Shown: positions 1,282 to 10,763 of the stretch, one piece after another
Position numbering within the stretch: the stretch's first letter is position 1
Layout: the number at the start of each line of letters is the position of its first letter
Source: a virus
Virus record (IMG/VR): IMGVR_UViG_3300009553_000041
Location: 1-43,866 of that record
DNA: 43,866 nucleotides
Strand: one strand, 5' to 3'
Notes under the pieces: generated by a model
What the model saw: the letters and a program-made list of their open reading frames with translations, nothing else
Database searches by the model: none
What the model was told of the DNA's origin: nothing
Program-made: the position numbers and the translations under genes

Positions 1282-2196
1282 TTAGTTTGTCTCGATGCCC
1301 AGCGCGCGCAGGCGTGCCTTGACCTGAACCGGGTCGGCTCCGCGCGCAATGGCATCATTGGCCTTTTGAATCAACGCATCCCGGTCCCCCTGCTCTTTGA
1401 CTGGCACCGCACCTCGACCGCGATAAACCTCATCGCGTCTGGCTTTAAGCGCCCTTAACTCTTCCTCCATCGCCTGATAAACAGGCTGCTTTTGGCGCAT
1501 CTGGACCGGAACCTCCTGAAGTTTTTTACTGATCTCTTTCTCTTGGGCGCGGATATCTTTTAGCTGTTCCCTTTGGACGGCATTTAGATCGCCTTCCTGC
1601 ATCGGTTTGCCGATGACCTGCAACCGTTGCGGGGATACCCGGAACGCTTTCACTCCACCCGGATACTCCTCTACGCCTCCCTCAAACTCTGGCCGTAGCG
1701 ATGCCGCAGATGGGAATGTTACCTGACCGGTCCTGGGGTTCTGCGCATAGGGTAAGCCCTCTGGGCTCGTGCCAAAGATTGGTGCCCCGGGTGGACTTAA
1801 GTCATGGATCGATTGAGCCAGCCGTTCGGGATGGCGATAGAGAAGCTTTGGGGCCCATTTTACAAACGCTTGCTGCAACGGGATTCCCTGAGACAAATCC
1901 TTCTCCAGTCCCTTCTGGCCCTCCAACTGCATTGCCGCTTCCTGCGCTTCACGTTCGGCCTGTTGCTCCTTTAGCTTTAGCTCCAAGCCGAATCGTTGCA
2001 CATCAAGTTGATGCTGCTCCTGGCGAAGCCGAGCGTTTTCCGCCGCCTGCTCCTGGGCAATAGCCATTGACTGCGCGCGCTGCGCAGCCGCTGTCTGAGC
2101 CTCGCTGGCGCTTAAGCCAGCCCGGTAGCCTTCCAGCAACCGGCTCACCGGTTCCACTGGATTTATCTGGAGCCAGGGAGGAATGCCATCAGCCAT
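1282..2196 (-). CDS. Coiled-coil virion-associated protein, 304 aa
   Basis: ATG start at 2196, three bases after the stop of the preceding gene (2200-2202). Residues about 28-105 are a charged, Gln/Glu/Ala-rich helical region (for example AENARLRQEQHQLDVQRFG) that should form a coiled coil. A second helical stretch lies at about 205-270. The middle is Pro/Gly-rich. There is no signal peptide, membrane segment or recognisable catalytic motif. It sits between a Gly-rich structural protein and the large edge protein, so it is probably an internal virion or tail-associated component. The family was not recognised. Confidence 0.75.
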   Translation of the reverse strand: MADGIPPWLQINPVEPVSRLLEGYRAGLSASEAQTAAAQRAQSMAIAQEQAAENARLRQEQHQLDVQRFGLELKLKEQQAEREAQEAAMQLEGQKGLEKDLSQGIPLQQAFVKWAPKLLYRHPERLAQSIHDLSPPGAPIFGTSPEGLPYAQNPRTGQVTFPSAASLRPEFEGGVEEYPGGVKAFRVSPQRLQVIGKPMQEGDLNAVQREQLKDIRAQEKEISKKLQEVPVQMRQKQPVYQAMEEELRALKARRDEVYRGRGAVPVKEQGDRDALIQKANDAIARGADPVQVKARLRALGIETN

Positions 2197-2199
2197 AGG

Positions 2200-3291
2200 T
2201 TAGAAATCGTAAAACTCTTCTTCGATGTCCTGCTGTTCTGGTTCCCAATTCTGCCAGTCGCGTCGCGTAGGATCTGCCCATGGCGGGTTAAGCCCCTGCC
2301 AACTCAAATCATCCAATGGTGAATCCCAGATATTGCCAATAGTGTCGAAGAATCCTGGGCCACCGACTGGAGGTTGCGGTATGCCGGCTACTCCTCCGAG
2401 AATATCAGGCCAGGGTCCGGGACGAGGAGTCTCCGCAGGCGGCGCAAATAGGGGCGATGCTGGACGATTGATGGGGTTTACTGCTCCTGCTGGCAACATT
2501 GGGTTTTGATTGAACCAGCCCGCGCCTCCACCACCAGCATTGAACCCGCGATTGAGTCCAGCCAAGGCATCTGCTCGTGTTCGCTGATAAGCCGCCTCAG
2601 GCACCGGGGCAGCCCGAAGCATGTCAGCAATGGCTTGCAGGTTGAGTTGCTGGCCGATGTCTGGGATGAGGCGATTGGGCGAGTAAGGCGCCACTGTTGG
2701 AATCGTGTTCTTCATCTGGGCCAAGTCCTGTTGCGCGTTACGCTGAACGCCATATTGAGTCAGCCCAAGATCGCGGAGTAGTTTGCTATTGGCGTTTGGT
2801 GAGCCAGAGATACCAGCACCAACACCGTATTCGGCCGCTCCTTGCTGCAACCCTGGAACCAGATCGCTTATGTCTCCCTGGAGCCTGCGATTGATGTTTT
2901 CCAATCCGGTTCCTATCCCCGTGAAAAACTGGTTTGGATACTGGTTCCGCAACGCTTGGTTCTCAGCGCCCGTTATTCCACCGATGATCGGGCCCAGGTT
3001 GTTTACCTGCCCAGAGATGGATGACAACAGATTGGCCAGCGATGCACCTGTGCCGGTGGTGCCGGGGATACCACCAGAAGCCGGATTGTATGTTCCCGGC
3101 AATGGTCCGGCTCCCTGCAATGTGCCAGCCCCACCCATACCTGGAGCACTGGCCACTCCTGGGAGGGCCCCAGCGCGGCCACGGGCCCATTGCGGCAACT
3201 CGTTGACCAGCGGCCCTAGTCCACCCATGCCATGCTGAGCCAGCCAATTGAGTTGATCAGCCTGTCTATTCCACTCCTCGATATTTGGCAT
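2200..3291 (-). CDS. Gly/Pro-rich structural protein, 363 aa
   Basis: ATG start at 3291, one base downstream of the preceding stop (3293-3295). The N-terminal third is Gly/Pro/Ala-rich with collagen-like composition but no strict repeat. The middle (about 115-250) is helical and polar, with a motif reading RTRADALAGLNRGF. The C-terminus is Trp/Asp/Glu-rich and ends in an acidic tail (EEFYDF). Nothing indicates an enzyme. Its place among tail and virion genes suggests a virion protein, possibly an internal or ejection component. The family was not recognised. Confidence 0.75.
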   Translation of the reverse strand: MPNIEEWNRQADQLNWLAQHGMGGLGPLVNELPQWARGRAGALPGVASAPGMGGAGTLQGAGPLPGTYNPASGGIPGTTGTGASLANLLSSISGQVNNLGPIIGGITGAENQALRNQYPNQFFTGIGTGLENINRRLQGDISDLVPGLQQGAAEYGVGAGISGSPNANSKLLRDLGLTQYGVQRNAQQDLAQMKNTIPTVAPYSPNRLIPDIGQQLNLQAIADMLRAAPVPEAAYQRTRADALAGLNRGFNAGGGGAGWFNQNPMLPAGAVNPINRPASPLFAPPAETPRPGPWPDILGGVAGIPQPPVGGPGFFDTIGNIWDSPLDDLSWQGLNPPWADPTRRDWQNWEPEQQDIEEEFYDF

Positions 3292-3292
3292 G

Positions 3293-4348
3293 TTACGTCA
3301 ACCTCCCAATGAATTGATTGCGCAGATGAGCACTGCCGAATGGTGCAAAGTTTATGGCTGGTCGCTCCCGACCCAATTGATGCACCAGTTCACCCTGTAG
3401 CAATCGGACAGCCTGCCCGTGACGTTCCTGGGCCATCTGCTTTGCTCCAGGAGAATCCATGCTCGAATAGCGCACGCTCTCACACTCGGCAATCAACGCC
3501 TCGATGTTGCCGATGAGCAGGTAGTCTGTGTCCACCCGCACCGGCACAAACTCCAGTTTCGCCATGGCCGTGATCTGCGTGGTCGCCGTGTCGCTGGCTG
3601 GGTCGCAACAGTTCTTTGGCAACCCAGCCAGGAAGTAGCGCCGATACGACGCCACCTGCTCGCTGGGTTCCATGGTCAGGATGAGTTCCTGATCTCCGGT
3701 GTCGGGGTCCACTTGATAGAATCGCACCGGTCCTGTCGTGACCGATTTCTGTATACCCGTGAGGGAATTGAGTATGGGCGAATCGGTGAAAGGCATCGTC
3801 AGGTCCAGGAATACTCCCAGGACATTATCTGTCCCATCTAGACTCGTGATGGGATTGTCACTGGCGTCTGTGCCCTGCACTAGCACACGACTGCCAATGT
3901 CGGCGTTATCGGTGATGTAAACGCGCAGGATACGGTTCTCATCCAGGTCGATGAAGCTCGGGAAACTGCCTCGGTCGAACGCCTCCGGCACCACGCAATC
4001 CATGTTCCTGCAACGGCCGACTGGTGTACTAGGTTCCTGTAGCCCAATACCAAACTGCAAGAACTCATAGAATTCGTTCTGAACCGCAATTGGAGTGCGG
4101 CACAGGTCCACGTTAATGAGCCTAGCCACCTCGCGTGGAAGCGTGATGAATGGGTCAGTCTTGGCCACATTGAACACCATCCTTGCCCACGTTCCCCACC
4201 AGCCTGTGTCCCCGCTTTCCCGCGCCAATAACAACCGCTGTGTGGCGGCATTAACGAACTGTGCGCAACCCAAGATGTCTGCCTGACACAACCCAATCGA
4301 CTGTGGCCCACGAGAAAGCCGGAAATCAATCAGTCGATTGCGATTCAT
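3293..4348 (-). CDS. Phage structural protein, possible tail-tube/connector component, 351 aa
   Basis: ATG start at 4348. The protein is an alpha/beta mix without a signal peptide. A helical N-terminal half contains ITLPREVARLINVDLC (about residues 68-83). A beta-rich C-terminal half follows, rich in Asp/Thr/Val, with scattered Cys (ECES, NCCD, RCRN). The gene lies upstream of the virion genes and downstream of the adhesin and tubular-B-like genes. In T7-like tails the gene neighbouring tubular protein B is tubular protein A, so that role is possible, but I see no diagnostic motif. Function should be treated as unknown. Confidence 0.7.
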   Translation of the reverse strand: MNRNRLIDFRLSRGPQSIGLCQADILGCAQFVNAATQRLLLARESGDTGWWGTWARMVFNVAKTDPFITLPREVARLINVDLCRTPIAVQNEFYEFLQFGIGLQEPSTPVGRCRNMDCVVPEAFDRGSFPSFIDLDENRILRVYITDNADIGSRVLVQGTDASDNPITSLDGTDNVLGVFLDLTMPFTDSPILNSLTGIQKSVTTGPVRFYQVDPDTGDQELILTMEPSEQVASYRRYFLAGLPKNCCDPASDTATTQITAMAKLEFVPVRVDTDYLLIGNIEALIAECESVRYSSMDSPGAKQMAQERHGQAVRLLQGELVHQLGRERPAINFAPFGSAHLRNQFIGRLT

Positions 4349-4390
4349 CTAGGGTTGTCTTGTAAAGGTTTGGTCCAAAAGAGCAAGTAA

Positions 4391-5131
4391 TCAGATCGAA
4401 CCCACCGCTGGCCATGTCACGCCATTGCCGCTGTTATAAAGGTTGGCCCTCCGGGTGGCGCTTAACACCGCGTTGAATATGCCCATCTCATCTATTCGTG
4501 AATCGCTGTCCCCATCCCCTTCGATGCTAAATTGAGAGTTGTTAAAATCTCCAAGTGGGGCATTGAGCGCGGTTGGTGAATCAGTGACAACGCCGTTATC
4601 TATTTGCAGGTGAAGCTTCCTGTCAGCCGGGTCGTACCAAGCGACGAAGAAATGATACGTGCTATCTTCGATGTTCTGAACGAAATCGGCCTGTATGGTA
4701 TTGCTTGGGCCGGTTAAAATTGCACTGAATGTGTCCGTGTCGGCTTCGTACCAGAAGTCTAGCGTAGCCACGAAGACAGCCGCGTTCTTGAATGAGTAAC
4801 CCAAATTGATAATAAATGTTCCAGCCAGAGCAAGGGCTACTCTTACCCAACCAAAAAAGGTAATCCCACTGTCAATGTATGCTAACAGGGACTCATTTGA
4901 GGCTATGGCTATACCCGTCCCACCACCAACCGGGAAGAACACCGCGCGCAAAATCTTGCCTCCACTACTCCAGCTTATACCTGCGCCTCCTGGAACTAAT
5001 TCAATTCCCTGAACATCATCAATCCTGTTTCCGCCGTCTCCGCCACTGTTTTCGTTTAGCGCCCAATAGGCGATTAAGTCACCCGGTGGCAAAACCTCTA
5101 GTGTGAAGTCTTTTTCGCAAACGGTAGCCAT
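4391..5131 (-). CDS. LamG/concanavalin-like virion adhesin, 246 aa
   Basis: I chose the ATG at 5131 (MATVCEKDF). It follows the upstream stop (5133-5135) by one base, and the short extension further upstream overlaps that gene. The body is a beta-sandwich of the LamG/concanavalin type: an opening strand LIAYWALNENSGGD, a central strand YHFFVAWYDPADRKLHLQID, and a closing motif RIDEMGIFNAVLSATRRANLY. This closing motif is typical of LamG_3 domains (Pfam PF13385). LamG domains bind carbohydrate or protein ligands. Here it is probably a surface-exposed tail adhesin or head decoration. No signal peptide is present, unlike the LamG protein at 11764-12588. Confidence 0.75.
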   Translation of the reverse strand: MATVCEKDFTLEVLPPGDLIAYWALNENSGGDGGNRIDDVQGIELVPGGAGISWSSGGKILRAVFFPVGGGTGIAIASNESLLAYIDSGITFFGWVRVALALAGTFIINLGYSFKNAAVFVATLDFWYEADTDTFSAILTGPSNTIQADFVQNIEDSTYHFFVAWYDPADRKLHLQIDNGVVTDSPTALNAPLGDFNNSQFSIEGDGDSDSRIDEMGIFNAVLSATRRANLYNSGNGVTWPAVGSI

Positions 5132-5132
5132 A

Positions 5133-6125
5133 TTAGGTGCAGGTTTCGACTGAAACTCGAATGCGGAAGTTAAATGTTCCAACCGTATCGGGCGTGCCAC
5201 TCAATACTCCAGCCGGGGTTAGGGTCATGCCTGACGGAAGGCTACCAGACACGACGCTCCAGGTTTCGGTCTCTTGATCGCCGCCAGATTCGGCGAAGTT
5301 CTTCACGTAATTCGCACCTGATGTGGCATCTGGAAGCGGGCTCGCTGTGGTGATGCGTATGATGCAAATCGAAAGGCTCTTTTGCTGGTACGACCCAATG
5401 GCGTCTGTAACCCGAACCGTGAAGGTGTAGACTCCCGTTGCCGTTGGTGTGCCGGTGATTTGGCCGGTGCATTCGTCCAGTTCCAACCCTGGCGGAAGGC
5501 TGCCACCCACCACCGACCACACGTAATGGATTGGCTGAAAGTTTTGGCCACAGATGCCAAACCCGAATGGAGTCTGAGGGGTTGGTATGTAGGGGAAGAA
5601 CAGGGAATTCCCGCCAACAGCCTCAATGGTAACAGTGAAATCAGATCCAACGCAGCCGCCGTTGAGGGTGTTACTAACGATGCAAATCCTGTTCTGTTGG
5701 GCCCGTATTTTGGCCACACTGAGCGCAGTCTGGTTGACTCCGAACTGGTTAAGCCCAATGAATGATCCAGCCGGTATTGTCCAAGTGAATGCTGTCCCGT
5801 CTGGGCAACGCACCGTGTAGCTCTGCGCGGAGTTAAAGAAGGTGGCCACTGGCAATCCGTCGGGCCCATCCAAATCGCCATAGACGCATTCCTGGGCCTG
5901 ACGGCGCGCGCAGTCGTCAGCCTCATCCTGGCTAATCTCCGAATAGCAAAGCTGCTTGCAGGCAGATTGGCTGAAGTGGTTGTTGAGCGGAACGTCTGTG
6001 AGGATGAAGTTGTAGATGCCGATGTGTCGATCAACGTCTGGGTCTTCCGCTGAGATGTTGCGAATCGGATCATCGTTGCAAGGTAGGCATTCCTTGAGTG
6101 AATTGGGGCAAGCGATTATAGGCAC
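5133..6125 (-). CDS. He_PIG (putative Ig) domain tail protein, about 330 aa
   Basis: The likely start is GTG at 6125, one base after the stop of the upstream tail gene (6127-6129). A longer GTG start at 6161 would overlap that gene. The N-terminal part is Cys-rich (SLKECLPCNDD, SACKQLCYSE, ARRQAQECVYG). The C-terminal half holds two copies of the He_PIG Ig-like pattern: GSLPPGLELDECTGQITGTP followed by YTFTVRVTD, and GSLPSGMTLTPAGVLSGTP followed by FRIRV. He_PIG domains (PF05345) are extracellular, cell-surface or virion-surface Ig-like folds. With the adjacent LamG protein it probably forms part of the exposed tail or adhesin apparatus. Confidence 0.8.
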   Translation of the reverse strand: MPIIACPNSLKECLPCNDDPIRNISAEDPDVDRHIGIYNFILTDVPLNNHFSQSACKQLCYSEISQDEADDCARRQAQECVYGDLDGPDGLPVATFFNSAQSYTVRCPDGTAFTWTIPAGSFIGLNQFGVNQTALSVAKIRAQQNRICIVSNTLNGGCVGSDFTVTIEAVGGNSLFFPYIPTPQTPFGFGICGQNFQPIHYVWSVVGGSLPPGLELDECTGQITGTPTATGVYTFTVRVTDAIGSYQQKSLSICIIRITTASPLPDATSGANYVKNFAESGGDQETETWSVVSGSLPSGMTLTPAGVLSGTPDTVGTFNFRIRVSVETCT

Positions 6126-6126
6126 T

Positions 6127-7935
6127 TTAACACACCATCCTTTCGAATGCGCCCTGCTCACGAGGCAGGGCGTAAATCAGCATGCCGCGTAACCGGCACC
6201 AGCCCTTGATTGTGATGCGGACTTGGAACTGATACCCGATATTTGTCGGACGCCCATTGCCAGTCTCGCATCGGACAGGTGGGCGTGGAAGATTCATGGT
6301 CGCTCGGAAGCTTTCGCAGTAAGGCTGAATCGGATACTCAGGACAAGTCACCGGCTCCATGTCTTCCCGGCAATCCTTGGCAGAGCATTCTTTCCACGCA
6401 TGCCAGAATATCCAGCAAGGGTTTTGATCCACCCGGTAATCGACCACGAACTCAACGGTGCCCAGCATCTTATCAAACCATAGCTCAAGACCTTCAAGTT
6501 GCTTTAGGTCAAAGGCGTTGCCCCAGGTATAGGCCGGGCTTTCTATATACCAACTGACCCGGTTGCCGTTGTTGTTCACCTCCTGATCAAACCGGTCCTG
6601 AGTCGTTAGCTCCCATAGGTCAATGTTGCCAGTTAGTTTGCTGACCGTTGTGGCAAAGCCGCGTTGCAGTCCTCCGAAGTCTCCTTCGAACAGTTGCAGG
6701 ACGTTCTGCACCTCGTACATTCCTTCCCAGGCTGGAGGATACTTTTCGTCGAGACTTGTGATTAAATCAAAATCCAGCGGCATGACGCCCTGATGGGCGA
6801 CTCCGACCGGGGTCTGGTAGGGTAGGACGGTTTGGAGTAAGCGATTGTCAAACTCAATGCCGCTGGCGAAGCGTAACAACCCTCGGTCGTTGAAGCGTAA
6901 AACTCGGTTCTCATTGCGGCTGATGGGCGTGTTGCCCCATTGCTGGAAGTAGCGCGTAGCCAATGCCAGTGACCGCACACCGTCCATGGCTTGATAGAAC
7001 AGATCACCGTTCACTCTCACCACGCTTCGGTCGTTGATGAACCCAAAGTTAATCTGCGCCACGGTTTGGAGCGGCTGGTTGCTATTGCCAGCCGCAATCC
7101 ACTCCGTTCTCGTAACGGGCACATTAAGCCTGAAGATGTCGCGCCTCGTGCCGATATAGAGCCGACCCTGACCCAGAGCCGTATCCAACTCGGCTGTATG
7201 GCTTAACCCGCGAATGTTGCCAGATTGAGCCGGGACAATGAATCCGTCGCCCGCTAACGCTAAAGGGTTCTCCGTTACTTTAAGAACGCTGTCCCGGAAG
7301 TTGTAGGCAGCCGTGCCGCTGGCTTGATTTCGAACAATGTCTCCAGCCGTATAGACGCGGCCGAACGCATACCAGAGGCGCCCCATGTAATAGTCCATTG
7401 GTCCAGCAGGTGGTATCTCGTTGATTCCTGGACCCGGAGCTACGCTGCCTGTGATGCCGTTGCTCCTGCGCAATGTAACCCCATCCCAGAACAGGGGAAG
7501 CGTCACCAAATCCCCGGCCTGTATAACGATAAACTCCTCCGCTTGGACCCAAAATGACTGCGGTTCGTTGGGAGGATTGGTCAGCCCGAACTCAGCCGAC
7601 AGATCCCGCACCGAATTGTCTGTGTCCACCCGGATGATGTAGATGCGCCCACCGATGCTGACCATTAGGTAAGGGTTGGCGAATGGCGGCTCATACATGT
7701 AGCCACCTTGAAATATGCCCGGCCACGGATAATCCTGCACGAGTGGCTTCCAGCCGGTCCTTTGCAAAACGCCTCCTCCTCGGCAAGTTGCATTGGTGAT
7801 CCAAGCCAGTTGATTGCGCTTTAAGCCTTCCGGGAAAGATTCACTGGCAATTGTAGGTACTTTGCCCGAGTCGATGCCTCCGGCAAACGACAGTTGTCCG
7901 TCCACTATACGAACGCCACCATTGCCGTTTGCCAT
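6127..7935 (-). CDS. Tail tubular protein B-like (nozzle/stabilisation) protein, 602 aa
   Basis: ATG at 7935 (MANGNGGVRIV); a TTG-initiated extension to 7992 would run into the divergent terminase gene. The N-terminus has the pattern FAGGIDSGKVPTIA followed by LKRNQLAWITNATCRGGGV and an R/TGWKPL motif. This resembles the opening of T7 gp12-like tail tubular B and phage stabilisation proteins, which form a beta-propeller nozzle at the tail tip. The rest is beta-rich with many aromatic residues. The C-terminus (about 515-602) is Cys-rich (CWIFWHAWKECSAKDC). It starts 29 bp from the divergent terminase start at 7965. Confidence 0.75.
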   Translation of the reverse strand: MANGNGGVRIVDGQLSFAGGIDSGKVPTIASESFPEGLKRNQLAWITNATCRGGGVLQRTGWKPLVQDYPWPGIFQGGYMYEPPFANPYLMVSIGGRIYIIRVDTDNSVRDLSAEFGLTNPPNEPQSFWVQAEEFIVIQAGDLVTLPLFWDGVTLRRSNGITGSVAPGPGINEIPPAGPMDYYMGRLWYAFGRVYTAGDIVRNQASGTAAYNFRDSVLKVTENPLALAGDGFIVPAQSGNIRGLSHTAELDTALGQGRLYIGTRRDIFRLNVPVTRTEWIAAGNSNQPLQTVAQINFGFINDRSVVRVNGDLFYQAMDGVRSLALATRYFQQWGNTPISRNENRVLRFNDRGLLRFASGIEFDNRLLQTVLPYQTPVGVAHQGVMPLDFDLITSLDEKYPPAWEGMYEVQNVLQLFEGDFGGLQRGFATTVSKLTGNIDLWELTTQDRFDQEVNNNGNRVSWYIESPAYTWGNAFDLKQLEGLELWFDKMLGTVEFVVDYRVDQNPCWIFWHAWKECSAKDCREDMEPVTCPEYPIQPYCESFRATMNLPRPPVRCETGNGRPTNIGYQFQVRITIKGWCRLRGMLIYALPREQGAFERMVC

Positions 7936-7964
7936 GGATGCCAGAATCAAGTCCACTGCTCTGT

Positions 7965-10763
7965 ATGGCAAGTCGCAAAGTAAACCTCCCAAGACAGGAA
8001 TTGTTCAATACGACCTTCGAACCGCTCACACCCATGTTCTGGATTCACATCGCCTGCATCCAGGCTGGTGGCAAGTGGAAGAAGCCCAATGGTGAATACG
8101 CAGGCATGGGCAATTTCTATCACTACAAGGAGGCGCAAAAGATTCTCTGGCCAGAAAAGCAGTGGCATAAATGGAATGACCTGCTGCTAGAGAACTTCCT
8201 TAAGCATCGAATCATCGGTGTAATCGGACCGGCATCTAGTGGCAAGACCCGCGAATCCTCTGACTTTGCCCTTATCTCGTACTATGCCTTCAGCGATTGC
8301 ATCACCATCTTGGTTTCAAGCACCGAACGAGAGATGCTTGAGATGCGCGTCTGGGGCGAGATGAAGAAAGCCCACAAGCTAGCCGTTCAGCGCATGGACG
8401 GATTGCCGGGCAATCTGGTTGAGAGCCGCCTTCGCCTTGTCACCGATGACCGGTTCGAAAACAGCGAAGGCAGAGACTTCCGCAACGGCGTCACCGGTAT
8501 TCCCTGTAAGAAAGGTGGCCAGTTTGTCGGCATGGGATGCTTCCCGGCTGGACAGTTGGTTGATACGCCATTTGGGAGGGTTCCCATTGAAGATATTCGG
8601 GGTGGAGATAAAGTCTCAAACGCTAACAATTATGGGCTTGTTATGGCTGTCACTGTTCGAGAGGCACCACTACTGGTAAGGGTGCATCGCTCGGATGGCA
8701 CTTCATTTGACTGCACACCGGAGCACAGGATTTTCACAGAACACGGATGGCTTAAGGCAATTGACATACCTTCCCAAACAATTCTATTATCCGCCGATGA
8801 ATCAATGTCTTTGCTGCGGTGGGACTATGGTAATGACAAGGGTAGGGAGGAAGTTTTGCTCGAAAAGATGCAAGTGGAGGGGGGCATCACCAAAGCGGCA
8901 GTGCCCAAGCTGTGGAAAGACGATCCCGAAATCAAACCATCGGAATCAGGTATACTGCAATCCGGCATGCATTCGGGCCTCGTGGAGCAGGAAATGCAAA
9001 TGGTGCGGGATATATTTTCGACCACCGGAACGAAGAGGGGTTTTCTGCGGGAGATCCTGCGCAGCGAGCTGGAAAAATGCCCAACCATCCATTATGGCGA
9101 AAATGGTGGGCAACAAGGATTGGTCAGAGATTGCTCGGAAAGTAAGCGAATCAATCATGTCCAACCCATCGGAGAGGCGGCGAAGGGCAAAGATGGCGTC
9201 CAAGATGCGGCAATCAACGAGGGAAGAAACGGTAATCCACAAATTATTCCCGGAATCCCAAAGGCAATTGGTAGTGGCCCACGTCCAGCCGGATCTTTGT
9301 TGGCCGGAATTGAAGCTTGCAGTGGAGATAGACGGCCAGCATCACAGATACGGAAGGCATCCGAACTGGGACAAGCTCAAGGAGTCCATTCTGGGGTTCT
9401 TAGGGTGGAAGCTATTGAGGTTCTCGAACGAGCAAGTGATGAACGATGTGGATACGGTTCGAGAGATTATATCGTCTACAATCTCGAAGTTGAAGGGCAC
9501 CCGTCGTATTCGGTAAATGGCACGCTGGTTCACAACTCCTACGTAGGTATCAAGAACAAGTACGTCATGCTCATTGCCGATGAAGGCGCCTTCATGCCGC
9601 GCGCCTATGTAGATGCCATATCCAATCTGAACAAGAACAAGGAATTCAAGTGTATCGTCATGGGCAACCCAAAGGAAACCACCGATGCTCTTGGAGTGGT
9701 CTGTGAGCCATCGGCTGAATTGGGAGGTTGGGATGGTGGAATTGATCAATCGCCAAAGACCAAGGTGTGGCAGACGCGCTTTAATGAGGGGGTTTGCGTT
9801 CAGTTGGTGGGCTCAGACTGCCCCAACATGGATGTGCCACCTGACCAAGAGCCGCCCTACCCATTCCTTATCACCCGCAAAGCCATTGAGGCTGATGTCG
9901 CCTTCTACGGGATGGATTCCATCCAGTATTCCATGATGAACGAGGGCCGGATGCCTCGTGGCCAGGGCCTGCGGCGCGTCATCACCCGGGCCATGTGCTT
10001 AAAGTTTGGAGCGATGGAACCCCCGATATGGAAAAATGACGAACGCACGCGCATAGGTTTTCTGGATGCAGCCTATGGGAGCGTAGGCGGCGACCGATGC
10101 GTTTTCGGCGAACTTCAATTTGGTCGCGACCCAAATGATCGCGAAATCATCGCTCTGATTGATACCCTTCTTGTCCCGGTGACAACGACCAGCCCCGAAC
10201 TTCCAGAGGATCAGATTGCCCTCTTCGTAAAAACTCAATGCGAGGCCCGCCATATTAAGCCGGAGGATATGTTCTTCGATTCAACTGGGCGCGGCACCCT
10301 CGTTGGAGCCTTCGCTCGGCTTTGGAGCAATGCGGTTGGTTTGGTCGAGTTCGGCGGCAAGCCCAGCGAACGCTACGTGTCCGACAACATCCGGGTTCTG
10401 TGCAAGGATTACTACAGCAAGTTCGTCACTGAACTGTGGTACTCGGTTTCACTGGCCATCCAGAGCGGACAGTTCCGTGGCATGACCGAGGACGTTCTGA
10501 TGGAAGGCTCCATGCGCGAGTGGGGTTTTGTCGGGGCCAACAAGATCGAGGTTGAGCCCAAGGACAAGATGAAGCTCAAGAGCGGCAGGAGCCCTGACCT
10601 GTTTGACGCCCTGGCAGCCGGGATGGAAGGGGCCCGGCGCCGAGGGTTCCATATCGCTAAACTATCCAATGTGGGCGGCACATCGCCCGATGGATGGCGA
10701 CTGGATTTGGCCAAGCGCATGGAACGCTTGGCTAAGCGCCATGCGCTTAACTATTCCGCTTAG
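7965..10763 (+). CDS. terL: Terminase large subunit precursor with intein, 932 aa (599 aa after splicing)
   Basis: The ATPase-nuclease motor that packages DNA into proheads. I chose ATG 7965 (MASRKVNL); ATG 7929 upstream would overlap the divergent gene start. The N-extein carries a Walker A motif, GPASSGKT. The C-extein opens with a Walker B strand, KYVMLIADEGA, shortly after the intein junction. The C-terminal nuclease part contains Asp-rich segments IGFLDAAYG and DMFFDSTG and ends with SPDLFDALAAGMEGARRRG. These match the RNase H-like nuclease of terminases. Removing the 333-residue intein (8538-9536) leaves 599 aa, a normal terminase length. Its stop codon overlaps the stop of the convergent gene at 10760. 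It is the only plus-strand gene between 1 and 35.9 kb apart from the nested endonuclease. Confidence 0.93.
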   Translation: MASRKVNLPRQELFNTTFEPLTPMFWIHIACIQAGGKWKKPNGEYAGMGNFYHYKEAQKILWPEKQWHKWNDLLLENFLKHRIIGVIGPASSGKTRESSDFALISYYAFSDCITILVSSTEREMLEMRVWGEMKKAHKLAVQRMDGLPGNLVESRLRLVTDDRFENSEGRDFRNGVTGIPCKKGGQFVGMGCFPAGQLVDTPFGRVPIEDIRGGDKVSNANNYGLVMAVTVREAPLLVRVHRSDGTSFDCTPEHRIFTEHGWLKAIDIPSQTILLSADESMSLLRWDYGNDKGREEVLLEKMQVEGGITKAAVPKLWKDDPEIKPSESGILQSGMHSGLVEQEMQMVRDIFSTTGTKRGFLREILRSELEKCPTIHYGENGGQQGLVRDCSESKRINHVQPIGEAAKGKDGVQDAAINEGRNGNPQIIPGIPKAIGSGPRPAGSLLAGIEACSGDRRPASQIRKASELGQAQGVHSGVLRVEAIEVLERASDERCGYGSRDYIVYNLEVEGHPSYSVNGTLVHNSYVGIKNKYVMLIADEGAFMPRAYVDAISNLNKNKEFKCIVMGNPKETTDALGVVCEPSAELGGWDGGIDQSPKTKVWQTRFNEGVCVQLVGSDCPNMDVPPDQEPPYPFLITRKAIEADVAFYGMDSIQYSMMNEGRMPRGQGLRRVITRAMCLKFGAMEPPIWKNDERTRIGFLDAAYGSVGGDRCVFGELQFGRDPNDREIIALIDTLLVPVTTTSPELPEDQIALFVKTQCEARHIKPEDMFFDSTGRGTLVGAFARLWSNAVGLVEFGGKPSERYVSDNIRVLCKDYYSKFVTELWYSVSLAIQSGQFRGMTEDVLMEGSMREWGFVGANKIEVEPKDKMKLKSGRSPDLFDALAAGMEGARRRGFHIAKLSNVGGTSPDGWRLDLAKRMERLAKRHALNYSA
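8538..9536 (+). mobile_element. Intein within the large terminase, 333 aa
   Basis: The intein starts at Cys (TGC 8538) in block A: CFPAGQLVDTPFGRVPIEDI, followed by GDKV. Block B is SFDCTPEHRIFTEHGWLKAI with the expected T-x2-H. Blocks F/G are YIVYNLEVEGHPSYSVNG followed by TLVHN, ending at Asn 9534-9536, with Ser as the +1 extein residue. The residues needed for protein splicing are therefore present: Cys1, block B His, penultimate His, terminal Asn and +1 Ser. The insertion point is between GQFVGMG and SYVGIKNKY, just before Walker B. No LAGLIDADG or HNH domain is seen in the intein's own frame. The long middle segment is polar and low-quality as a protein and overlaps an out-of-frame endonuclease gene. 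Confidence 0.93.
8797..9516 (+). CDS. Out-of-frame nested homing endonuclease: three zinc fingers plus DUF559/Vsr-like nuclease, 239 aa
   Basis: Lies wholly inside the intein, in the +1 frame relative to the terminase. ATG 8797 starts right before the first finger; ATG 8695 would add 34 unremarkable residues. Three regular C-x2-C...C-x3-C units occur: C4/C7/C21/C25, C36/C39/C54/C58 and C67/C70/C84/C88. A basic linker (ERRRRAKMASKMRQ) follows. The nuclease core then reads KLAVEIDGQHH (E177, D179, H182/H183), D192 and KLLRFSNEQV. This is the pattern of DUF559/Vsr-type PD-(D/E)xK endonucleases, the fold also used by EDxHD-type homing endonucleases. It should cut intein-less terminase genes to drive homing, which is inference. 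No SD is visible, so how it is translated inside the terminase message is unclear. Confidence 0.85.
   Translation: MNQCLCCGGTMVMTRVGRKFCSKRCKWRGASPKRQCPSCGKTIPKSNHRNQVYCNPACIRASWSRKCKWCGIYFRPPERRGVFCGRSCAASWKNAQPSIMAKMVGNKDWSEIARKVSESIMSNPSERRRRAKMASKMRQSTREETVIHKLFPESQRQLVVAHVQPDLCWPELKLAVEIDGQHHRYGRHPNWDKLKESILGFLGWKLLRFSNEQVMNDVDTVREIISSTISKLKGTRRIR

Follow-up and report, generated by a model that had tools for sequence, protein, structure and literature searches.

Introduction

In the usual picture, the homing endonuclease is a domain read in frame with the intein, or else it is flanked by the two parts of a split intein. In the fractured genes that Dassa and colleagues reportedly presented in 2009, a Vsr-like endonuclease is said to lie between the halves of a split intein. 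Another endonuclease, I-Bth0305I, derives from a group I intron. EDxHD proteins have been described as a homing endonuclease family with I-Bth0305I as its type member (PMC3943268). The closest published case to the locus treated here is the ShiLan domain, together with the Pacc40 insertion, in phage methylases (Arsenault, Gosselin and Gogarten 2025, PMC11855218). Our locus is situated in the IMG/VR virus record IMGVR_UViG_3300009553_000041, whose 43,866 nucleotides were analyzed as a whole and are called the window hereafter. It comprises the terminase large subunit gene, a single open frame of 944 codons (7929-10763, plus strand), a continuous intein inserted into this gene and an EDxHD endonuclease gene located inside the intein in the +1 frame. 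We regard it, with a probability of roughly 0.88, as a mobile intein that carries its homing endonuclease in overprinted and not in fused form.

Like the window locus, ShiLan is an insertion into a phage gene that leaves the host frame open and contains a homing-type endonuclease in another frame, and its authors pose the same question of how the out-of-frame endonuclease is translated (PMC11855218). However, the ShiLan nuclease belongs to the HNH type and neither an intein splicing domain nor an intron was found (PMC11855218), whereas the window harbors an EDxHD nuclease in a complete intein. A conserved phase and dual-coded motifs over more than 100 loci also separate the window family from ShiLan. 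With I-Bth0305I, the window nuclease has in common the catalytic motif, the fold, the phage setting and additional DNA-binding modules, but it is overprinted in an intein and possesses N-terminal zinc ribbons. The locus resembles canonical inteins in that a mobile intein and a homing endonuclease occupy conserved sites of replication and packaging genes. In canonical inteins, though, the LAGLIDADG or HNH endonuclease is an in-frame domain, while the nuclease of the window is a separate predicted product. The fractured genes are similar in that inteins of phage-type genes are reportedly accompanied by an unfused endonuclease of the same superfamily. Their hallmark, two separately translated parts, is not seen in the window, where the single frame spans the whole gene with the endonuclease inside. 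Mobile inteins are known as a kind, but the architecture with an overprinted endonuclease was not found described: no account of an out-of-frame endonuclease in a continuous intein was detected in the open-access literature that was searched.

Results

The identity of the host gene was indicated by the C-extein, which matches the PHROG terminase large subunit (9.8e-5). Two intein-free relatives, L090 and L091, are identical (100%) to the N-extein protein encoded by 7995-8537 and about 99% identical to the C-extein protein (DNA about 93% near the insertion site). In both, precisely 999 bp are missing between GGCATGGG(T/A) and TCCTAC, i.e. their site is empty, and none of the 21 terminase relatives fetched with the C-extein contains an intein at this position. 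In more distant terminases the same site is occupied by the full-length relatives L166, whose endonuclease open reading frame (ORF) is intact at full length, and L168. It is also occupied by a mini-intein of 165 amino acids, L142, on a contig of a Hydrogenedentota metagenome-assembled genome. This mini-intein has lost the endonuclease except for a C-terminal piece, GWRLLRFSNQQV, which can still be read in the +1 frame. Judged by these comparisons, the intein is a real mobile insertion into the terminase gene.

An earlier note on this DNA had proposed a continuous intein of 333 codons at 8538-9536 that keeps the terminase frame open, and its coordinates proved to be right. The splicing blocks were recognized as well: the region 8538-9539 comprises Cys1, the block B motif TPEH, VYNLEVEGHPSYSVNG and the C-terminal LVHN/S, while block F reads VYNLEVEGHPSYSV (9474-9515). 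Cys1, TxxH in block B and the terminal His-Asn followed by Ser make up the class 1 intein signature. In the AlphaFold2 model, the splicing domain (residues 1-90 and 288-333) has a predicted local distance difference test score (pLDDT) of about 95 and matches solved inteins in the PDB (gp41-1, DnaB and RecA). The intervening linker of approximately 190 residues is disordered, and no in-frame endonuclease is present in the window intein. Under the curated Pfam cut-offs, the intein scored 20.6 for Intein_splicing (cut-off 35.8) and 24 for Hint_2 (28.4). Homologues, e.g. L021, L034 and L062, exceed these cut-offs; the low scores of the window intein are a limit of sensitivity and not a defining biological feature. 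Protein splicing of the intein is predicted by its motifs and its modeled fold.

Since in group I introns the endonuclease ORF is normally not in the frame of the exons, the insertion might also be read as a self-splicing RNA intron in which the intein blocks are coincidental. The probability of this is close to nil, as no Rfam intron match was obtained at E <= 1 between 7900 and 10800, intein blocks A, B, F and G occur in essentially all relatives, the intein fold is predicted with confidence and stops in the host frame are avoided in 86 of 86 loci.

The +1 ORF is open from the ATG at 8695 (273 codons), the conserved start being the ATG at 8797. Its stop codon (9514-9516) lies 20 bases ahead of the intein end. 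A 239-codon endonuclease gene wholly within the intein, sharing about 720 bases with it, had been claimed from the sequence and was borne out; of the suggested overlap with blocks F and G, F is indeed taken in while G is just touched. The encoded protein matches Pfam DUF559 (1.4e-11), and the five active-site residues (Table 1) are invariant across 67 aligned sequences. Its AlphaFold2 model (pLDDT 86) has I-Bth0305I as top PDB match (3R3P, E 3.2e-4, target template modeling score 0.76), with a DUF559-like protein and, further down, Vsr (1CW0) among the lower matches. By motif and modeled fold, the product of the +1 frame belongs to the EDxHD homing endonucleases. Together with the blocks and the fold of the intein, this agrees with the earlier view of an out-of-frame homing endonuclease in a continuous intein. 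Site-specific cleavage of the empty terminase allele is predicted.

The overlap was analyzed for selection in both frames. Among 13 pairs, intein codon positions 1/2/3 had changed 1108/581/488 times within the overlap, compared to 207/163/367 times in the intein outside the overlap and 1256/934/2560 times in the C-extein. The excess at position 1 means that the free position within the overlap is the wobble position of the endonuclease. When endonuclease codons of 86 loci were shuffled synonymously, 913 stops were expected in the intein frame but none was observed, while the third frame revealed no avoidance of stops (1538 versus 1398). For the window alone, the intein frame contains 0 stops versus a mean of 8.0 under shuffling, a value of 0 being reached in 0 of 1000 shuffles, and the third frame contains 14 versus 13.9 expected. 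Hence, the open double frame of the window is not due to chance. Free-standing relatives of the endonuclease have 11-16 stops in the frame corresponding to the intein frame. From the wobble excess and the avoidance of intein-frame stops it follows that the nuclease is the protein conserved by selection, whereas the linker stays open without being conserved as a protein. Except for the C-terminal strand and block F, which are dual-coded, the linker sequence mirrors the endonuclease gene in a frame kept free of stops. Distances of the endonuclease and of the non-overlapping intein were correlated (Mantel r 0.60, 0/2000 permutations; 0.25 among distant pairs).

It is conceivable that the linker is a functional domain and that amino acid selection acts on both frames over the whole overlap. 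Some linker residues are conserved, e.g. residue L140 in A4, and both frames have a function in the C-terminal strand and in block F. Yet L140 shares its bases with a zinc-finger cysteine codon of the endonuclease, the pLDDT is mostly below 60, and in the upstream overlap the changes concentrate at the nonsynonymous intein codon position 1 (877/456/367), which makes a functional linker unlikely. A different view would be that only the intein frame is functional and that the +1 ORF is the relic of an extinct endonuclease or an accidental ORF. The nuclease is evidently dispensable for splicing, because it has been lost in L142 and internally deleted in L128 with the intein intact. On the other hand, the window nuclease has its full length and retains every EDxHD residue, the nuclease frame shows the wobble excess described above across the 13 pairs, and the nuclease is modeled with confidence next to a disordered linker. 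A relic is therefore very unlikely.

Regarding the expression of the endonuclease, the starts of 69 of the 86 ORFs are ATG codons, usually located 2-5 residues ahead of the first CxxC, and in 46 of 86 loci a +1-frame stop occurs at most 10 codons upstream of the inferred start, in several cases immediately before the ATG. A Shine-Dalgarno (SD) core was detected at 37 of 85 starts (about 44%) but only at 15.6% of control positions (binomial p 9e-10). Ahead of the window endonuclease, a sigma-70-like promoter sequence was identified (Table 1), which is the only site with a score of at least 11/12 on either strand of the whole window. Promoter-like elements of at least 9/12 at matching spacing precede 9 of 49 starts without SD and 0 of 37 starts with SD, the rate in controls being about 1%. 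Several terminase inteins (L168, L012, L171) have the same 18-nt spacer and place the element equally far from the ATG; the L168 segment was left out of the promoter-region alignment, since it does not cover the start. The position of the element suggests that the window endonuclease might be translated from a leaderless internal transcript. The unusual expression problem that the earlier note had raised thus has a likely answer: expression of the endonuclease probably starts inside the intein, via an internal promoter or an SD sequence.

Were the nuclease reached from the terminase/intein frame by a programmed +1 ribosomal frameshift, the product would instead be a fusion of N-extein, intein and nuclease and not a free enzyme. 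A constant +1 offset in all relatives would suit such a shift. However, the stops close upstream of the starts leave it little room, and the predominance of ATG codons shortly ahead of the first CxxC as well as the enriched SD or promoter-like signals speak for initiation at these starts, so that we consider frameshifting quite unlikely.

The overprinted endonuclease and the intein share two dual-coded motifs at the 3′-end of the overlap (Table 1). When reading begins one base upstream, the bases of the endonuclease motif GW[KR]xLRFSN encode the intein sequence RVxSVEVLE, a predicted beta strand ahead of block F. This stretch (GW-RFxN) is more constrained at all codon positions, with 0.18/0.04/0.06 changes per codon in comparison to 0.38/0.20/0.16 upstream. 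The interlock of the two motifs would fix the +1 phase, and it would also account for the retention of the motif in L142 despite the loss of the nuclease.

A search for other inteins with the same nested frame uncovered a large family with a single fixed phase. About 134 relatives with an EDxHD gene nested in an intein were identified in isolated phages, IMG/VR contigs and contigs of bacterial genomes, all in the +1 frame. In IMG/VR, 113 of 122 distinct loci were nested (72 of 80 in a first scan and 41 of 42 further contigs in a second), a fraction, though not a phase, that is biased upward and gives no unbiased prevalence, because nested endonucleases served as queries. The loci share ancestry and the counts are not independent; contigs duplicated between the two scans were removed by hand. 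All nested IMG/VR loci have the endonuclease on the same strand as the intein, in +1, and essentially all are surrounded by blocks A, B, F and G. A single-protein query with the window endonuclease retrieved no relatives from IMG/VR, so that alignment queries were needed. Bacterial genome contigs contributed 15 more nested cases with intein blocks. Among isolated phages, nested ORFs of 200-263 codons were present in five helicases (Vibrio phages K391, CP-T1 and 104E43.1, Pseudomonas phage MR14 and Corynebacterium phage phi673), and in all five records the host helicase alone is annotated over the endonuclease. The host genes include those of terminases, interrupted at several sites, of helicases (SNF2 and others) and of a clamp-loader-like AAA protein. 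Antisense "nested" flags in high-GC cellular genomes (L135, L136, L137, L141, L144) were rejected as long chance ORFs without intein blocks.

Many homologues of the +1 frame thus exist, and the full-length ones keep both frames open, the exceptions being the mini-intein L142 and, in part, L128. The latter (3146-3745, plus strand) is a shortened intein of 200 amino acids with an internally deleted endonuclease, part of whose C-terminal nuclease is kept at +1; by its sequence it is an intermediate of endonuclease loss. The pattern of L142 and L128 is as expected for loss of the endonuclease following invasion. The eight non-nested relatives of the first scan are free-standing genes as far as they were inspected, and neither intein blocks nor a split intein were found among those inspected. 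One free-standing relative (L010, 3483-4163, plus strand) is 42% identical to the window protein in A3 and lies directly upstream of a terminase-like gene; it may be a free-standing homing endonuclease directed at that same target. An SNF2-type helicase gene (L021, 208-4167, plus strand) seems to be interrupted by two inteins, one of which contains an in-frame LAGLIDADG domain and the other an overprinted EDxHD gene. The splicing regions most similar to that of the window intein belong to L012, L014 and L029, which are inserted about 15 residues upstream in related terminases, at the neighboring site RDFRNG^C...HN^C...PCKKGG. These adjacent sites suggest shifts of nuclease specificity between neighboring sequences.

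Nesting is not restricted to EDxHD endonucleases. In the terminase intein of Rhodobacteraceae phage LS06-2018-MD07 (L008, 2743-3252, plus strand), an HNH_3 endonuclease ORF is nested at +2, as it is in 7 of 7 relatives from IMG/VR (L154-L160). In the six members tested, host-frame stops were 0 versus 1-5 expected. The terminase intein of Escherichia phage BUCT618 (L007, 2723-3409, minus strand) harbors a NUMOD4-HNH endonuclease ORF in antisense, an arrangement conserved in three further contigs (L161-L163). For this class the synonymous-shuffle test is uninformative, because the antisense phase depends on codon content alone. Both HNH classes were covered less deeply, with intein blocks located in part of their members. 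Nesting is therefore no single oddity: a large family in one phase is accompanied by two unrelated HNH classes, which are convergent.

The features of the locus are compiled in Table 1. The terminase gene lies on the plus strand, while nearly all of its large neighbors (about 1285-7992 and 10763-35818) belong to the minus strand.

Table 1. Features of the terminase gene, its intein and the nested endonuclease gene in the window
Feature	Position	Strand	Basis or remark
N-terminal extein, terminase large subunit	7929..8537	+	Conservation begins at about 7995; start codon uncertain
Continuous intein, 333 aa (Cys1 ... His-Asn / Ser+1)	8538..9536	+	Sequence; 999-bp insertion versus L090/L091; AlphaFold2 fold match
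Residues 1-90 of the intein, N-terminal splicing region with blocks A and B	8538..8807	+	AlphaFold2 pLDDT about 97
Sigma-70-like promoter, TTGACA-18-TATTAT (candidate)	8761..8790	+	11 of 12; -10 ends 6 nt ahead of the endonuclease ATG
Homing endonuclease gene, 239 codons and stop, +1 relative to the intein	8797..9516	+	Zinc-ribbon N-terminal part; EDxHD (DUF559/Vsr-like) C-terminal nuclease
Three zinc-ribbon-like CxxC...CxxxC motifs (C4/C7/C21/C25; C36/C39/C54/C58; C67/C70/C84/C88)	8806..9060	+	Alignments A1, A3
Linker in the intein frame (residues 101-285), predicted to be disordered; mirrors the endonuclease in the -1 frame	8838..9392	+	pLDDT about 37-62; substitution pattern
Nuclease active site D166, E177, D179, H183, D192 (EDxHD motif)	9292..9372	+	Alignment; fold match 3R3P
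Interlock 1: endonuclease GWKLLRFSN (9403-9429) / intein strand RVEAIEVLE (9402-9428), same bases	9402..9429	+	Modeled as a strand in both proteins
Interlock 2: endonuclease C-terminal tail SSTISKLKGTRRIR / intein block F VYNLEVEGHPSYSV	9472..9515	+	Sequence
C-terminal extein, terminase large subunit	9537..10763	+	PHROG match and L090/L091 identity

Discussion

Taken as a mobile intein with an overprinted endonuclease, the locus might function as follows. The full transcript would be read in frame 0 to give a terminase-intein-terminase precursor from which the intein would splice itself out. From an internal start in the intein, the +1 frame would be translated independently into a free EDxHD nuclease with zinc-ribbon DNA-binding modules. 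This enzyme may cut intein-free terminase alleles near the junction GGQFVGMG/SYVGIKNK, whereupon repair would copy the intein along with the nuclease gene into the cut allele. The nuclease frame is the one that selection maintains, whereas the intein frame for the most part just has to be free of stops for readthrough of the host protein. The two 3′ dual-coded motifs (GWxxLRFSN of the nuclease, RVxSVEVLE of the intein) may lock the phase at +1 throughout the family.

Several points weigh against this interpretation, in addition to the query bias mentioned above. Splicing, cleavage and expression are predictions made from sequences and models. The endonuclease starts were chosen by a rule, namely the last start ahead of the first CxxC, and the start in the window has no SD sequence. 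The promoter of the window is a consensus match that was found after looking for it, and its conservation may partly stem from the protein sequence of the intein. Finally, inheritance from a single founding event may be an equally good reason for the uniform phase, although it is compatible with the interlock.

It is reasonably probable that overprinting is a general strategy of inteins with at least three origins, which differ in nuclease and phase (EDxHD at +1 in about 134 loci, HNH at +2, NUMOD4-HNH in antisense). The EDxHD frames would be locked by the dual-coded motifs, and an internal promoter or ribosome-binding site of its own would allow homing to be regulated apart from the host gene. 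Split inteins with an endonuclease between their halves could then be a product of decay.

As a dual-coding system, the locus is long and well supported, selection on it is clearly frame-specific, and its two activities are assigned to separate proteins encoded by overlapping frames of one sequence. It provides a concrete model for the expression of out-of-frame homing endonucleases, a question left open for ShiLan (PMC11855218). If the predicted activities hold, the large and unannotated family would be a source of new inteins and of new nucleases with site specificity. The reading of inteins that lack an in-frame endonuclease changes as well: many of those that look like mini-inteins but have long linkers may be mobile. 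What has been overlooked by gene annotation is thus a widespread kind of selfish element, residing in over a hundred phage and bacterial genes.

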